IMG/VR virus record: IMGVR_UViG_3300045950_000264
Span: 1-33,949 of that record
Strand: one strand, 5' to 3'
Source of the DNA: a virus
DNA: 33,949 nucleotides
This document shows, one piece after another, positions 3,722-33,949 of this stretch. The notes below the pieces were generated by a model. It did no database searches. It was given only the letters and a program-made list of their open reading frames with translations, and was not told where the DNA came from. A program made the position numbers and the translations under genes. Position 1 is the stretch's first letter; each line of letters starts with the position of its first letter.

Positions 3722-4018
3722 AAGACATCCTATAAAGGTGTCAAGTGCAGAAAAAGGGTAATGGTTAGATATGGGTTGGGCAGAAAAAAATCGATTGTAG
3801 GGCTTCCTACGAAGTCGATTTTCGACAGTGCACCCAAAATCTTTGAATTCAGTTGTCAAAGAACGATCTTTGAAAATTTAATTTGAGACAAAGACCCTTG
3901 CAGGGTTATAGGTTTCTCCTGATTTAAGCAGGCTAAGAGAAATCTGGAGAAGCTTTTTACCCACGCATATGACTTCTTTGCCCATATCTATGGGTGAAGA
4001 TTATACCAGGAGGAAGCG
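3722..4018. other. Non-coding gap between early and middle genes, rich in hairpins
   Basis: No convincing gene lies here. Inverted repeats visible are a two-part stem at 3788-3821 (listed separately), CAAAGA-ACGA-TCTTTG at about 3857-3872, ACCCT-TGC-AGGGT at about 3893-3905, and CCCATA-TC-TATGGG at about 3981-3994. The last lies just before the ribosome site AGGAGG of the next gene. The stretch probably holds the end of the transposition operon and the start of the next transcript. I could not settle on a promoter. A 41-codon frame starting ATGGTTAGA near 3761 has no further support. Confidence 0.5.
3788..3822 (+). terminator. Candidate terminator after the transposition operon
   Basis: Outer stem AAATCGA (3788-3794) pairs with TCGATTT (3815-3821) and inner stem GTAGG (3797-3801) pairs with CCTAC (3806-3810) around a GCTT loop, with a short T run at the 3' edge. 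It lies 67 bases after the GemA-like stop codon. The T run partly overlaps the stem, so it could equally be an attenuator or a processing hairpin. Confidence 0.4.
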
Positions 4019-28556: not shown

Positions 28557-29645
28557 ATGGCTATAACCATATCAGTTACTGATGCATTAAGGCAGTCAGT
28601 AGAGGCTGCCAGCGGAGGTAAAAACACAGTGCTTTATGACAGCAAGGGATATCCGAGCATTATGGTCAGGATACCCAGATTTAACCTTCAGGATATTGAC
28701 GCATCTCTTGGCACCGGCGCTCACCCTGCGTTTATCGTTAACGGGGTAGAGAAAAGTGAAATCTTTATCGGAAAGTTTCAGGCAATAGTGCACGATGGCA
28801 ATGCCTTGAGCCTGCCAGCGCAGGACCCTGCAGTGAACCTGAATTTTGATCAGGCTCTTGCCTTCTGCAAGGCAAAGGGGACGGGCTGGCATGTAATGAC
28901 CAACGCAGAATGGGCGGCATTAGCCCTCTGGTGCTGGAAAAATGGCTTTATGCCGAGAGGCAATAATGATAACACTAAAGACCATTCCGCAGCCTACGAG
29001 AGCGCCGTGAAAGCCACGATTGGCATGGATAATAGAACTCTAACAGGCTCTGGACCCGCAAGCTGGTATCATGACAACACACCCTTTGGCGTTGCAGACC
29101 TCAACGGGAACATTTGGGAATGGACTGGAGGTATGAGACTTAATAACGGAGAGATTCAAATATTACAGAACAACGATGCTGCCGATAATACAAAAGACCA
29201 GAGCGCCTCATCAACCCTCTGGAGGGCGATACTGGCATCGGATGGCTCTCTTGCCGATCCCGGAACGGCAGGCACATGCAAATACGACTCGGTGAATGCA
29301 GGGACAGTTGGACAGGTTGGCCCAGCACAACTTGACGATGTCAGGGACAATTCCAATGCCCCGGCATCCGGAGACAATGGACACACTTATAACACATTCC
29401 AGAGTCTTGTTGCTGACACAGGAATCACACCACCTGCAATACTAAAAGCACTCGCCCTTTTCCCAATTGCCACAACAGGACTGGGCGATGATGGAATGTG
29501 GGTAAGGAACTATAACGAGCGGCTACTGCTTCGCGGCGGTAACTGGAGCGATAGCTCCGATGCGGGGGTGTTCGCGCTTAATCTGGATAATGCGCGCTCG
29601 ATCGTGAGCGGCACTGTGGGGTTCCGCCCCGCCTGTGTCTTATGA
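28557..29645 (+). CDS. DGR target protein: FGE-sulfatase/C-type-lectin-fold variable protein
   Basis: The 362-residue protein is probably the virion's host-binding tip. The formylglycine-generating-enzyme-like fold is shown by AFCKAKGTGWHVMTNAEWAALALWCW, GVADLNGNIWEWTGG and the C-terminal RGGNW...AGVFALNLDNARS...VGFRPA. These are the motifs of the C-type-lectin-related fold used by many diversity-generating retroelements. No catalytic FGE cysteines are apparent, as expected for a binding version. Its last 39 codons contain the variable repeat. Compared with the template, residues 331, 332, 335, 344, 351, 352 and 353 are changed and codon 348 is silently changed. AAAGGAGG precedes the ATG. It follows tail fibre genes. 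Confidence 0.9.
   Translation: MAITISVTDALRQSVEAASGGKNTVLYDSKGYPSIMVRIPRFNLQDIDASLGTGAHPAFIVNGVEKSEIFIGKFQAIVHDGNALSLPAQDPAVNLNFDQALAFCKAKGTGWHVMTNAEWAALALWCWKNGFMPRGNNDNTKDHSAAYESAVKATIGMDNRTLTGSGPASWYHDNTPFGVADLNGNIWEWTGGMRLNNGEIQILQNNDAADNTKDQSASSTLWRAILASDGSLADPGTAGTCKYDSVNAGTVGQVGPAQLDDVRDNSNAPASGDNGHTYNTFQSLVADTGITPPAILKALALFPIATTGLGDDGMWVRNYNERLLLRGGNWSDSSDAGVFALNLDNARSIVSGTVGFRPACVL
29530..29637 (+). repeat. Variable repeat (VR) of the diversity-generating retroelement
   Basis: The 108-bp segment aligns without gaps to the template at 30086-30193 (offset 556). There are nine mismatches, at 29548, 29550, 29559, 29586, 29600, 29608, 29610, 29611 (all A in TR to G here) and 29614 (A to C). 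None of the 85 non-adenine TR positions differ; 9 of about 23 adenines do. The last 22 bases (GTGGGGTTCCGCCCCGCCTGTG) are identical and GC-rich, fitting the initiation-of-mutagenic-homing sequence. Confidence 0.95.
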
Positions 29646-29747: not shown

Positions 29748-30080
29748 ATGGATAATTTGGTCATATATCAGAAGGTTTATGATTTCACATTATATCTATT
29801 CCCTGTTGTTGACAAATTTCCGAAACATGAGAAATTTGTTCTCTGCACGCATATTAAGTCATGCGTGCTGGACATTGCAAGGGAGATCATCAGGGCAAAT
29901 AAAAGTAAAAATAAGAAGCCGATTCTGTATGACATTGATGTAAGGATAGAAGAACTGAAATTCCTGCTGAGACTGGCTCATGACAGGAAGTATCTATCTC
30001 ACAAGAGTTACGAGCATAGCGGTAAGCTTGTAACTGAAATAGGGCGGCTGTTGGGAGGGTGGATTAAAAGTGTGGGTTAA
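29748..30080 (+). CDS. avd: DGR accessory variability protein Avd (four-helix bundle)
   Basis: The 110-residue protein MDNLVIYQKVYDFTLYLFPVVDKFPKHEKFVLCTHIKSCVLDIAREIIRANKSKNKK...IDVRIEELKFLLRLAHDRKYLSHKSYEHSGKLVTEIGRLLGGWIKS has the four-helix pattern of Avd/S23-like proteins. 'FpK.ekf.L..qi......i...i..A' and the R...Y.....Y......igr.LggWi.s ending are clear. By family knowledge it forms a pentameric barrel that binds the reverse transcriptase and TR RNA and is needed for cDNA synthesis. It lies directly before the TR: the stop is 5 bases upstream of the first TR base. Confidence 0.92.
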   Translation: MDNLVIYQKVYDFTLYLFPVVDKFPKHEKFVLCTHIKSCVLDIAREIIRANKSKNKKPILYDIDVRIEELKFLLRLAHDRKYLSHKSYEHSGKLVTEIGRLLGGWIKSVG

Positions 30081-30085
30081 GGGCA

Positions 30086-30193
30086 TTCGCGGCGGTAACT
30101 GGAACAATAGCTCCAATGCGGGGGTGTTCGCGCTTAATCTGAATAATGCGCGCTCAATCGTGAACAACAATGTGGGGTTCCGCCCCGCCTGTG
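30086..30193 (+). ncRNA. Template repeat (TR) of the DGR
   Basis: This is the invariant donor copied by the reverse transcriptase. Read in the target frame it encodes RGGN WNNSS NAGVFALNLNNARS IVNNNVGFRPAC. Ten asparagine codons (AAC/AAT) are placed at or around the changed positions, the usual design because randomising both A's in AAY reaches 15 amino acids without stop codons. Its frame starts after avd and is not part of a credible gene. The homology starts weakly earlier (TGTGGGTTAAGG at 30071-30082 resembles TGTGGGTAAGG in front of the VR). Confidence 0.95.
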
Positions 30194-30304
30194 CCTGTGT
30201 AATGTTTTTAGAGAGGATGTCTCTACGGAGCGCCTCCAGTGTCGTACACAGACAGGCTCTTAATCCCTGCCGAAAGGCAAAAATTGGAGAGGCACTGTGT
30301 AGTG
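30187..30304 (+). ncRNA. Structured RNA at the TR 3' end (candidate cDNA-priming/spacer region)
   Basis: GCCTGT (30187-30192, the very end of TR) pairs with ACAGGC (30252-30257) and TGTGTA (30196-30201) with TACACA (30245-30250). They close a junction containing hairpins TAGAGA-GGATG-TCTCTA (30209-30225) and GGAG-CGC-CTCC (30227-30237). Downstream, TGCC-GAAA-GGCA (30268-30279) and CACT-GTGT-AGTG (30293-30304). In the BPP-1 system the roughly 140 bases after TR fold with it and supply the cDNA primer; this region is in the equivalent place. Confidence 0.65.
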
Positions 30305-30340
30305 AGTACGGATAATCCATAAAATTGCACATGCCGCATA

Positions 30341-30460
30341 ATTTCGGTCGGTTAATAGCTCCACTCCTGTTGGAGAATTATTAGGCCCGAAATCTCAGAA
30401 TCGTAGAAACGGTCGGTTGGCAGCTCCACTGAGAATTGCCAAGCCCATCAAAAACCGTTT
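30341..30460 (+). ncRNA. Two tandem copies of a structured RNA motif with covarying stems
   Basis: Unit 1 (30341-30393): ATTTCGG pairs with CCGAAAT (30387-30393), TAATA (30353-30357) with TATTA (30379-30383), CTCCA with TGGAG. Unit 2 (30407-30460): AAACGG pairs with CCGTTT (30455-30460), TTGGCA (30417-30422) with TGCCAA (30437-30442), CTC with GAG. Both keep TCGGTT, GCTCCACT and GAGAATT at matching places, while stem bases differ in a compensated way (AAT/ATT versus GGC/GCC). No coding frame explains this. It lies between TR and the 61-aa ORF/RT. I do not recognise a described RNA family. Confidence 0.7.
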
Positions 30461-30485
30461 TACGGTTTTAAGATTTCGGGCTTTT
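30451..30485 (+). terminator. Hairpins with T run competing with the tandem RNA motif
   Basis: AAAACCGT (30451-30458), TTT, ACGGTTTT (30462-30469) forms an 8-bp stem that shares bases with the unit 2 outer stem. AGATTTCGGGC (30471-30481) is fully complementary over 11 bases to GCCCGAAATCT (30385-30395), which overlaps the unit 1 outer stem; TTTT follows it. Both would form only when the units open, as in an attenuator. Confidence 0.5.
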
Positions 30486-30504
30486 CGTTTCAGGAGGCTG
30501 AGCA

Positions 30505-30690
30505 ATGGTTGAGAAGAAAGACGTTAAGGAGTGGAAAAAAGTACTGGTGAGATGTTTAGAAGGGCTGTCAAAAGAGGGAATTGTCCCGCAGGATGTGAAG
30601 GAACTTACCGGCAGAATTGTCCTTGATCTGAACATGAGTCAGGGCGGCATTACGGATATGGACATATCTGTTAAGAGGAAATTCAAATAG
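30505..30690 (+). CDS. Small protein (61 aa) before the DGR reverse transcriptase
   Basis: ATG 30505 follows CAGGAGG. The 61 residues VEKKDVKEWKKVLVRCLEGLSKEGIVPQDVKELTGRIVLDLNMSQGGITDMDISVKRKFK are lysine-rich and probably an alpha/beta or helical mini-domain. It ends 3 bases before the RT GTG. No family recognised. Gene position and a good ribosome site suggest a DGR accessory (nucleic-acid or RT binding); this is inference. Confidence 0.6.
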   Translation: MVEKKDVKEWKKVLVRCLEGLSKEGIVPQDVKELTGRIVLDLNMSQGGITDMDISVKRKFK

Positions 30691-30693
30691 TCT

Positions 30694-31731
30694 GTGGGTG
30701 ATGCTATGCCAAAAACATACAACGGTCTATTTGAAAAGATATATACCTTTGAAAACCTCTACAGCGCATATCTCAAGGCACGCCGGTGCAAGCGATACCG
30801 GAAAGAAGTTCTTATATTCTCCCGCAATGTCGAGGAGGAACTATTGACTCTTCAAGAAGAGATAAGCTTAGGCACCTATACGACTGGCCGGTATAGGAGA
30901 TTTCTGGTATTTGAGCCAAAGAAACGGGAGATTTCAGCGCTACCGTTCAGGGACCGGGTGGTTCATCATGCAATCCACTCTATTATAGAACCTCTCTTTG
31001 AGAGACGGTTCATTTTCGATTCTTACGGCTGCCGTGTCGGGAAAGGCACTCATGCCGGATCTGCAAGGCTGGTGAACTTTTTGCGGAGGGCCCAGAGAGT
31101 ATGGGGTGTCGTGTATTGCATGAAGGCGGATATTTCAAAGTTCTTCCCTTCTGTAGATCACGAAGCATTAAAGAAGATCATTCGCAGGACAATACGCTGC
31201 AATAGGACTCTCCATCTCATCGAGGAGATCATTGATAGCATCCCCGGAGGGAAAGGGATTCCTATTGGGAATCTTACGAGCCAGCTCTTTGCAAATGTGT
31301 ATCTGGATGAGCTTGATCATTTTATAAAAGAAAAGCTGCGGGTGAAATTCTATATACGATATATGGATGATTTTGTGATATTAAATGAGGATAAGATACG
31401 GTTGCATAAGTGGAAATCTGATATTGAGACATTTCTAAAAGAAGAACTGCGGCTTAATTTCAATGCCAAAACGTCTATCTTTCCTATTTCGCAGGGAGTT
31501 GACTTTCTCGGATATAGGACATGGCCAACTCATAAGCTACTCAGGAAGAGGAGTGTCATAGGGATGAGGCGGAAGCTGAAAAAGCTTTCTGAACGCTACA
31601 GAAAGGGGACAGTAACACTCAAGGATATAAGGCCTGTAATAGCGTCATGGCTTGGCCATGCGAAGCATGCAAATAGCTATAACGCAGTAAAAAGAGTGCT
31701 GGGCGGGATGGTTTTTAGCAGGAGTTACTGA
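30694..31731 (+). CDS. DGR reverse transcriptase
   Basis: The start is GTG 30694 or, more likely by family alignment, ATG 30706 (MPKTYNGLFEKIYTFENLYSAYLKARRCKRYR). Residues (numbered from 30694): motif 1/2 ISALPFRDRVVHHAI (80-94) and SYGCRVGKGTH (110-120), motif 3 KADISKFFPSVDH with first catalytic Asp 146, motif 4 GIPIGNLTSQLFANVYLDELDHF with IGNLTSQ (191-197), motif 5 YMDD (223-226) with the catalytic aspartates. IGxxxSQ instead of the QGxxxSP of retroviral and group II RTs is diagnostic of DGR RTs. There is no maturase or endonuclease domain. It copies TR RNA to cDNA with errors opposite adenine. Confidence 0.95.
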   Translation: MGDAMPKTYNGLFEKIYTFENLYSAYLKARRCKRYRKEVLIFSRNVEEELLTLQEEISLGTYTTGRYRRFLVFEPKKREISALPFRDRVVHHAIHSIIEPLFERRFIFDSYGCRVGKGTHAGSARLVNFLRRAQRVWGVVYCMKADISKFFPSVDHEALKKIIRRTIRCNRTLHLIEEIIDSIPGGKGIPIGNLTSQLFANVYLDELDHFIKEKLRVKFYIRYMDDFVILNEDKIRLHKWKSDIETFLKEELRLNFNAKTSIFPISQGVDFLGYRTWPTHKLLRKRSVIGMRRKLKKLSERYRKGTVTLKDIRPVIASWLGHAKHANSYNAVKRVLGGMVFSRSY

Positions 31732-31741
31732 AAAATAAAGC

Positions 31742-31839
31742 GGACAGTAGACTAATCCTATGTTGGAGCATAGGATCGGGATGCCCTGCTACCATCCGCA
31801 CCTCTGGCCGAGGCGGTTTCATTGTAGCAGTGGTGTCCC
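31742..31839 (+). ncRNA. Three-way-junction RNA between RT and DNA methylase
   Basis: Closing stem GGACA (31742-31746) with TGTCC (31834-31838). Hairpin ATCCTATG-TTGGAG-CATAGGAT (31755-31776), a perfect 8-bp stem. Second arm CTGCTAC (31786-31792) with GTAGCAG (31824-31830), enclosing CCG..CCTC-TGGCC-GAGG-CGG (31796-31816). GGGA (31778-31781) could pair with TCCC (31836-31839) as an alternative. The region has no gene, lies 10 bases after the RT stop and ends 30 bases before the next ATG. It may be a 3' cap of the DGR transcript, a leader element of the methylase, or an independent small RNA. Confidence 0.6.
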
Positions 31840-31869
31840 TAAAAATTCAATTCAGGGAGGTTATTTATT

Positions 31870-32637
31870 ATGAAGAAAAGCTTTCTCAGTTATCTGGGCG
31901 GCAAATCACTGCTTGCAAGCAAGATTATTCCTCTGATACCGGAACATTCCTGTTACTGTGAAGTCTTTGCCGGTGCAGCGTGGATGCTCTTCAAAAAGGA
32001 AGAGTCGAAGGTCGAAGTTATTAATGATATTAATACAGATCTGGTAACTCTTTATCGCGTAGTGAAAAACCATCTTGATGAGTTCGTCAGATATTTAAGA
32101 TGGATACTTATAGCGAGGGACGAGTTTGAGCGCTTTAAGGCTGAAAATCCGGAGGCCCTCACGGATATACAGAGAGCAGTGAGGTTTTACTATCTACTCA
32201 GGACAGGATTTTCAAGTCGTATTGATAATCCGAGCTTTGCGATCGGAACGGTGAGGCGGCCAAACCTTAATCTTTTAAGGATCGAAGAGGAGCTATCCGA
32301 GGCGCATCTCAGGTTGTCCAGAGTGTATATCGAGAATCTGCATTACGAGAAGCTTATAGAGAGGTATGATAGGACGCATGTGTTTTTCTATCTCGACCCT
32401 CCCTATCACGGAGTCGAGGATTATTACGGCAAGGGGATATTCGGTAGGAACGATTTTGCAAAACTGAGGGATATTCTAAAGGGCATTAAGGGCAAATTCA
32501 TAATGTCCATAAATGATACGAAGGAGATACGAGGACTTTATAAGGATTTCCGCATCGAGGAGGTAAAAACATCATATTCGGTAAATGGAGGTAGTAAAAA
32601 GCTGGGCGTTACAGAATTGCTGATTATGAACTTTTAG
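31870..32637 (+). CDS. dam: D12-class N6-adenine DNA methyltransferase (Dam-like)
   Basis: The 255-residue protein has SYLGGKSLLASKIIPLIP (7-24), the SAM-binding CEVFAGAAWML (30-40) and the catalytic YLDPPYHG with DPPY at 176-179, the order of class-alpha D12 adenine methylases. The variable recognition part lies between. As the last phage gene it occupies the place of mom in Mu and probably protects phage DNA from host restriction. A CAGGGAGG ribosome site precedes it. Specificity (for example GATC) cannot be read from the sequence with certainty. Confidence 0.9.
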   Translation: MKKSFLSYLGGKSLLASKIIPLIPEHSCYCEVFAGAAWMLFKKEESKVEVINDINTDLVTLYRVVKNHLDEFVRYLRWILIARDEFERFKAENPEALTDIQRAVRFYYLLRTGFSSRIDNPSFAIGTVRRPNLNLLRIEEELSEAHLRLSRVYIENLHYEKLIERYDRTHVFFYLDPPYHGVEDYYGKGIFGRNDFAKLRDILKGIKGKFIMSINDTKEIRGLYKDFRIEEVKTSYSVNGGSKKLGVTELLIMNF

Positions 32638-32700
32638 ACATGATAAAACACGGAAAGGCAGGAAAAAACACGCTTGTAAAGTTGTAAAGCGTTATCCTGT
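32638..32700. other. A/T-rich non-coding stretch between methylase and right end
   Basis: The stretch contains the direct repeat TTGTAAAG-TTGTAAAG (about 32674-32689) and no gene. It probably belongs to the transposase-binding right end. Confidence 0.5.
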
Positions 32701-32752
32701 AATTTGTAACATTTAATTCTGGAATTTGTCGCATTTTCGGCTGGAATGAACA
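32679..32752. mobile_element. Right end of the Mu-like prophage with tandem transposase-binding sites
   Basis: Two adjacent 22-bp repeats, 32701-32722 and 32723-32744, share AATTTGT-N2-CATTT-N5-TGG; a third, weaker copy (14 of 22 matches to the first) lies at 32679-32700. Read from the end inward (minus strand) the sequence begins TGTTCATT-CCAGCCGAAAATGCGACAAATT. A terminal TG followed by such sites is the plan of Mu ends. The last phage base is then 32752 (CA), where host coding sequence starts. The left end is outside the window. Confidence 0.65.
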
Positions 32753-33949
32753 CTTATCATATCCCAAAGCCGCTCCTGCCAATACTTGGAAAGCCGTTGA
32801 TAGAGGGCATCATTGAAAAATTCTCTCTTATATCCTCAGGCAGAATAGGCATAAACCTCCATTATAAGGCAGATATGTTAAGAGATTGGGCCAGAAATTC
32901 TGCATTCTCAGAGCGCATTGAATTGTTTTATGAAGACCCGATACTCGGCACGGGCGGGGCATTGAAAAATGCCGAAGAATTTCTTTCAGGAGGACACTTC
33001 CTTACGCACAATTCCGACATTGTCTCTGACATTGTTTTTTCGCTCCTGATAGAAACACATCTATCGAAGGGCAATATTGCGACACTCGCAACACATGATT
33101 ATCCAAGATACAACAATGTTGTTCTGGATGAAAGGGGATATGTTGTGGATGTCGAGAATCCTGGCACTTCAATGCCGAATCCTGAAACTTCAGGTAGAAA
33201 AGCCGCATATACAGGAATTGCGGTCTACTCTCCGGAGATTCTGAAGTTTCTGCCTCAAGGAATTTCACATGCCACGGTTGCATGGCTTGCAGCAGCTAAA
33301 GCAGGACATAAGGTAAAAGCCATGGATTTCACCGGATGCTACTGGAACGACATAGGAACACCACAGGCATATGCCTCTGCAATAATCGATGCGTTAAGAA
33401 CTGACGGCGAAACAGTATACATTCATCCATCGATGGGAGGTTGCCCGGATATCGAAATTGACGGCTATGTCGCTATAGAGAAAGGCTGCATCCTTGATGA
33501 TGCATCTTCTTTCAGAAACTGCATTGTGCTTGAGGGCAGCCAGCTAAATCCCCCCATCCCCCCTTTAGAAAAGGGGGGTGAGGGGGGATTTTACGAGAAC
33601 TGTATAATCGGGCCTGATTTTGAGATCAATCTCGACGAGACCGAGATGCTCGGCACTTTTGGAGATAATGGATTGATTCTTATCGGCACAGGAGGCTCTG
33701 ACAGGAAGTATTACAGAATGAAGAATGATAATTCGACTGCTGTGTTTGTGAAATACAAAAAAGAAGACCCCGACTTCCATCGGCATATAGAGTACACAAA
33801 ATTCTTCAGGAAGCATGATATACCTGTCCCTGAATTGCTTGATGTCAATTTTGAAGAAATGACTGCTTTATTTGAAGACCTCGGAGATGTTTCCCTTTAC
33901 AGTTGGCTGAAATGTCTGCGGGAATCTATGCAAATAGAAGCTATGTACA
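32746..33949 (+). pseudogene. Host NDP-sugar nucleotidyltransferase-kinase fusion, 5' part displaced by the prophage, 3' end outside window
   Basis: The frame is open to the window edge. YHIPKPLLPILGKPLIEGIIEKF is the second conserved block of nucleotidyltransferases. PILGTGGALKNAEEFL, FLTHNSDIV and FTGCYWNDIGTPQAY agree with GDP-mannose/UDP-sugar pyrophosphorylases (MurU-like). From about 33690 LIGTGGSDRKYYRMKNDNSTAVFVKYKKEDPDFHRHIEYTKFFRKHDIPVPELL is an aminoglycoside-phosphotransferase-type kinase start, as in AmgK. A fused MurU-AmgK-like enzyme (cell-wall sugar salvage) is a reasonable guess. The N-terminal GxGxR nucleotide-binding block that should precede IPKPLLP is missing because the prophage lies there. 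The only start, ATG 32746, is supplied by phage DNA. Confidence 0.75.
33546..33592. repeat. Palindromic coding repeat (NPPxPPxxKGGxGGF type)
   Basis: A run of C's (AAATCCCCCC...CCCCCC) is followed by the complementary run of G's, forming a long hairpin around TTTAGAAAA. Read in the gene frame it codes for NPPIPPLEKGGEGGF, between the nucleotidyltransferase and kinase parts. The same peptide-coding palindrome is dispersed in many bacterial genomes. Here it is inserted in frame without breaking the gene. Confidence 0.8.

Follow-up and report, generated by a model that had tools for sequence, protein, structure and literature searches.

Genomic setting of the locus

The window, by which we mean the whole 33,949-nt stretch analysed, is IMG/VR virus record IMGVR_UViG_3300045950_000264. 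By its Mu-type genes (a Mu transposase C-terminal domain, a TniB-like ATPase, Portal_Mu, a Mu F-like protein and a tail sheath) it is a Mu-like bacterial virus, and near its right end it carries a complete DGR with target gene, Avd, template repeat (TR) and reverse transcriptase (RT):

28557..29645, + strand: DGR target gene, formylglycine-generating-enzyme/C-lectin-like (Pfam FGE-sulfatase, 1.6e-9)
about 29530-29640, + strand: VR, inside the target gene (BLAST match with TR, 91%)
29748..30080, + strand: Avd (Pfam bAvd, 4.7e-34; phrog_3206 'Avd protein of DGR', 5.8e-38)
30086..30196, + strand: TR (BLAST against VR 29530-29640)
30197..30335, + strand: DGR spacer (Sp) RNA, weakly RT-14-like (Rfam RT-14, 31.5 bits; gathering score 48.1)
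30694..31731, + strand: DGR RT (Pfam RVT_1, 7e-22; phrog_1423, 4e-150)

Mismatches within the TR/VR repeats (BLAST, 91% match) fall at TR adenines, which is the DGR signature, and the window holds everything by which a DGR is recognized: RT, Avd, TR, VR and adenine-specific differences. Strong hairpins also occupy 31732-31870, between RT and a Dam-like methyltransferase gene (MFE -43.2, z -1.95); DNA similar to them was not found in the fetched DGR loci. Read by eye, the phage-like part apparently ends near 32.64-32.75 kb (window 32640-33949), and a frame at 32710-33948 with no proper start resembles, by eye rather than by family search, a bacterial sugar-nucleotidyltransferase/phosphotransferase-like protein, which looks as though the Mu-like prophage had inserted into a host gene.

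The weak RT-14 match (Rfam RF02921) spans 30195-30335 and stays below gathering, while at the same position in the related DGRs L005, L007 and L061 RT-14 is found above gathering, and the Sp consensus fold built from six loci contains 11 pairs with double-sided changes. This spacer corresponds to the RNA structure known to recruit the bRT-Avd complex (PMC12875486). In L005, L007 and L061 RT-14 abuts RT, whereas the window instead has an insert of ~360 nt that contains two RNA units, a terminator-like stem and a gene for a 61-aa protein. The tandem modules are distinct from the known DGR spacer RNA; the latter already stops at ~30335, shortly before unit 1.

Two covarying RNA modules in tandem

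The initial annotation had proposed a tandem RNA motif between TR and RT, under selection, whose two units have different yet complementary stems. Both units are present at that place:

30341..30393, + strand: RNA module unit 1 (unit model R1, 64.5 bits, E 3e-14, a score that is not independent, the window sequence having been in the model; covariation; fold z)
30341-30347 (ATTTCGG) / 30387-30393 (CCGAAAT), + strand: unit 1 P1, outer stem
30352-30357 (TTAATA) / 30379-30384 (TATTAG), + strand: unit 1 P2, inner stem
30359-30363 / 30371-30375, + strand: unit 1 P3
30406..30461, + strand: RNA module unit 2 (R1, 43.1 bits; covariation; fold z)
30407-30412 (AAACGG) / 30455-30460 (CCGTTT), + strand: unit 2 P1, outer stem
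30417-30422 (TTGGCA) / 30437-30442 (TGCCAA), + strand: unit 2 P2, inner stem
30424-30426 / 30431-30433, + strand: unit 2 P3

Unit 2 ends at 30461, not at 30482 as first annotated; the latter coordinate is the end of the terminator-like stem. The window contains exactly two occurrences of the pattern GGTCGGTT..GCTCCACT..GAGAATT (0.00 expected). The 155-nt region folds with z = -5.0 (0/300 shuffles as stable) and single units fold moderately (z -2.4 to -2.6 for unit 1, -2.35 to -2.6 for unit 2). Units share the conserved core CGG-UYRG-[6 bp]-R-CUCC...GGAG-AnY-[6 bp]-RC-CCG, in which the 6-bp stem between two internal loops varies by compensation. We found no conserved reading frame over the modules, where only small unrelated ORFs overlap, and homologues of the region differ by indels; a coding region was rejected on these grounds. 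Over the modules Rfam returned no gathering-score match, and relaxed-E matches, for example with plant microRNA precursors, lie far below gathering and concern unrelated families; with no Rfam match, a known RNA family was rejected as the identity of the modules. No tRNA or tmRNA was found.

Homologous loci were obtained by searching with RT. Four of them have the same arrangement with both units: L020, a viral contig (RT fragment 95% identical to the window), and MAGs of Nitrospirae (L055, RT 76% identical), Deltaproteobacteria (L056, 70%) and Bacteroidota (L083, 65%), which with the window make five carriers. Across the ten aligned units 91.7% of cells are paired and 0/500 shuffles are as good, which bears out the proposed selected structure; double-sided changes occupy 21 cells over six pairs against a shuffled mean of 7.2, and pairing falls to ~50% once the partner is shifted by one column. 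The covariation support derives from P2 and P3. The core of P1 is invariant and carries little informative variation, no P1 pair has a two-sided change and its variable pairs partly break; P1 covariation is weak, since the known carriers number only five and include three close relatives.

The check proposed with the annotation, a unit model searched across DGR loci, recovered two units in each of the five loci and nothing else credible in ~160 DGR loci; matches in L103 (25.7 bits) and L186 are single, context-free and chance-like, and were set aside. Two DNA patterns and small-protein searches detected no further carriers in viral contigs, nor did searches of phages and of plasmids. The unit model had no match in 395 genomes of the L056 phylum, and the 61-aa protein profile no further carriers in 295, 395 and 395 genomes.

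Unit-specific signatures persist across loci: at the bulge position R, unit 1 mostly has G whereas unit 2 mostly has A, and P2 is AU- or GC-rich according to unit. Since these signatures were kept, the duplication of the module is, by this comparison, older than the divergence of the carrier loci. The apical sequence of window unit 2 is unit-1-like (AGCTCCACT, GAGAATT), unlike that of its sister L020, which suggests local conversion of window unit 2 by unit 1. The 'fixed words' that the annotation saw in both units do occur twice in the window, in part because of this conversion; GCTCCACT and the GAGAATT of unit 2 are peculiar to this window.

A predicted terminator shares a strand with unit 1

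30385..30481, + strand: terminator stem, with unit 2 in its loop (11/11 pairs in four homologues; MFE in five loci)
30385-30395, + strand: terminator 5' arm GCCCGAAATCT (= GCCCGAAAUCU), which includes the 3' strand of unit 1 P1
30471-30481, + strand: terminator 3' arm AGATTTCGGGC (= AGAUUUCGGGC), which pairs with 30385-30395
30482..30489, + strand: terminator U-run TTTTCGTT (= UUUUCGUU), a U-rich tract after the stem in five/five loci

A stem of 10-11 bp followed by a U-rich tract, the sequence feature of a (predicted) terminator, is present in 5/5 carrier loci. The stem is paired at 11/11 positions in four homologues, with double-sided changes at two pairs, and a comparable stem plus U-run arose in 28/20,000 shuffles. 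In a scan of 79 distinct Sp-RT gaps, a CCCGAA stem plus U-run was found in the five carriers only. Its loop is long (75 nt, containing unit 2), unlike that of a classical short hairpin, and a simple terminator scan of the window does not report the stem. A promoter in the interval from Sp to the small gene was rejected, as a scan of the window gave no sigma-70-like site there on the + strand.

The CCGAAAU strand of unit 1 P1 (4-7 pairs) is the terminator 5' arm in 5/5 loci, so that P1 and the terminator are conserved, mutually exclusive predicted hairpins sharing a strand. In 5/5 loci the full-leader MFE is the terminator state, which across the five leaders is 7.6-13.9 kcal/mol better than the state with the 3' arm blocked; when the arm is blocked, unit 1 P1 forms in folding. 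Equilibrium folds of the growing transcript give a P1 probability of 0.94-0.97 with ~4 nt of the counted 3' arm out, and a terminator probability of 0.95-0.99 two nt later, with ~six nt out (5/5 loci). At some lengths in L020 and L083, P1 dips to 0.01-0.5 and then recovers, these folds describing equilibria, not kinetics.

Terminator-like hairpins also occur elsewhere. In another DGR clade (L116, L117 and L121), a simple one (GCGGCATA stem, U-run) lies ~25-60 nt before RT and may be an independent way of separating template RNA from RT. In L083, a second one (CCCGCTGAT/ATCAGCGGG, then TTGATTTT) lies at 3949-3990, between the 61-aa gene and RT.

A small gene co-inherited with the modules

30492..30497, + strand: Shine-Dalgarno AGGAGG of the 61-aa gene (GGAGG kept in all five)
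30505..30690, + strand: 61-aa gene, no family assigned (alignment A1; third-codon-position excess; dN/dS)

While right about the tandem structure itself, the initial annotation overlooked this gene, the predicted terminator and the strand that the terminator shares with unit 1. Protein copies are 51-79% identical to the window copy, changes concentrate at third codon positions and dN is 0.08-0.13 versus dS > 1 in close pairs: by these measures the gene is real and under purifying selection. The protein matched no Pfam, NCBIfam or PHROG family, and its AlphaFold model is poor (pLDDT 64). Its N-terminal 35 residues weakly resemble the ParE/RelE helical hairpin (hhalign score 36 vs at most 17.5 for shuffles). 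This match was chosen from ~1,085 genomes with a per-genome E of 0.001-0.01, and ParE/RelE homology was rejected as probably chance.

By their arrangement the modules are the leader of the 61-aa gene upstream of RT. Modules, terminator and gene occur together in 5/5 carriers and none of them in the other DGR loci examined, ~150 of which are without modules. One such locus, L004, retains Sp and RT and has neither modules, terminator nor ORF. In the RT tree it is the sister of carrier L083 (100/100) and falls inside the carrier clade (100/98). Since L004 is nested among carriers without all three, joint loss is the simplest history, which suggests that modules, terminator and gene were lost together. 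The cassette is dispensable for DGR retention, which argues for a regulatory unit and not a core part of the RNP.

A putative transcription attenuator

From sequence comparison (covarying modules, terminator overlap in 5/5 loci, strict gene co-occurrence and absence in a nested relative) we infer that termination occurs, that it is regulated, that a factor would lead to read-through and which factor this may be. We consider it somewhat likely that the leader is a phage-encoded transcription attenuator, by which TR-Sp RNA would be made while expression of the small protein and RT would be conditional; the doubled hairpin probably controls the timing of RT synthesis. Avd, TR and Sp would be transcribed first, and the nascent RNA would form unit 1, whose outer stem P1 would sequester CCGAAAU. 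Unaided, the AUUUCGG just before the U-run would capture CCGAAAU as the last ~100 nt emerge, and the terminator would form, stopping transcription after the template RNA and short of the 61-aa gene and RT. Binding of a factor to the two internal loops of the module would keep P1 closed and prevent the terminator, so that RNA polymerase would continue through the small gene into RT. Unit 2 lies within the terminator loop and has these internal loops too; it would offer the factor a further site, for cooperative binding or for loading. Because the predicted folds show P1 closed and then a flip to the more stable terminator, default termination with factor-stabilised read-through would be the simplest reading.

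The 61-aa protein, whose gene immediately follows the terminator, is by co-occurrence and position the leading candidate for this factor. More tentatively, a 61-aa RNA-binding protein and the tandem RNA switch could form an antitermination circuit with positive feedback, which would determine whether the mutagenic RT, too, is produced in a cell where template RNA is already being made. If true, the phage would possess a dedicated on/off switch for targeted hypermutation. Of the functions first suggested for the motif, 'sensor controlling mutagenesis' lies closest to what the anatomy suggests.

A constitutive terminator with a 3' cap seems unlikely, although several observations fit it: the stem would end the TR-Sp RNA so that template exceeds RT, which it may need to outnumber, and the hairpins would protect the 3' end with no sensing. 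Folding strongly favours the terminator state, and L116, L117 and L121 have their simple hairpin right before RT. Such a terminator leaves unexplained, however, why each locus has two modules that stay different from one another yet conserve their internal loops, why unit 1 P1 overlaps the terminator arm exactly and why the 61-aa gene is strictly tied to them. 'Self-contained small RNA', another of the functions first suggested, could apply only insofar as a terminator would give the TR-Sp transcript a 3' end.

The 61-aa protein might instead repress its own synthesis, binding the open modules and thereby favouring the terminator or blocking its own start, which would cap RT expression. The modules do stand immediately ahead of the gene, an arrangement shared with the rplJL attenuator (PMC4538822), and in two carriers, L056 and L083, RNAalifold joins the CGGUUAG of unit 1 to a CUAACCG ahead of the ATG. 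Neither the window nor L055 retains this duplex, so start-site sequestration was rejected; moreover, one conserved loop exists only with P1 closed, which favours read-through, and we regard autogenous repression as rather doubtful. It is improbable that the leader is a tandem riboswitch in which each unit has a small-molecule or ion ligand whose level sets read-through into the small gene and RT. Aptamer-like tandem modules with conserved internal loops on a terminator expression platform would suit this reading, and overlap with P1 is typical of riboswitches, but a unit spans no more than 40-55 nt and has few unpaired bases that never vary; no Rfam family matches, and across MAGs from several phyla the units precede just one phage gene, with no occurrence elsewhere in 395 genomes (unit model). 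The annotation's 'RT/Avd binding element', by which the modules would extend the spacer RNP and tune priming or cDNA synthesis, is highly improbable: they directly follow Sp, presumably on the same transcript, but it is the adjoining Sp (30197-30335) that corresponds to the RNA known to recruit bRT-Avd (PMC12875486), and Sp and RT do without modules at other DGR loci, L004 in the carrier clade among them.

Relation to known systems

Natural regulation of DGRs has been called an open frontier (PMC12875486), and among the open-access papers searched none describes a DGR that has an element of this kind. Here a concrete, putative cis-acting control element comes with just one candidate trans-acting gene and, in L004, with a knock-out made by nature, and this makes DGR regulation directly testable in a reconstituted DGR. 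The modules constitute an RNA family without a match in Rfam.

Like the modules, RT-14 RNA is a structured RNA between TR and RT of DGRs; the modules are separate from it, have no RT-14 match and lie beyond its 3' end. In the glycine and guanidine-II tandem riboswitches, two like modules likewise stand in tandem in a leader, whereas the modules here match no Rfam family and precede no metabolic gene. The RAT of BglG/LicT is a small hairpin with asymmetric internal loops that overlaps a terminator arm, and by analogy the modules would work in the same way; no BglG-type regulator was seen among the DGR-flanking proteins scanned. The L10(L12)4 leader of rplJL is an attenuator in front of its gene (PMC4538822), and the place of the L10 regulator gene within its operon may parallel that of the 61-aa gene. 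Unlike the RAT and L10 attenuators, the modules described here are in tandem, belong to a phage DGR and have no Rfam match, and no member of a known regulator family was found beside them.
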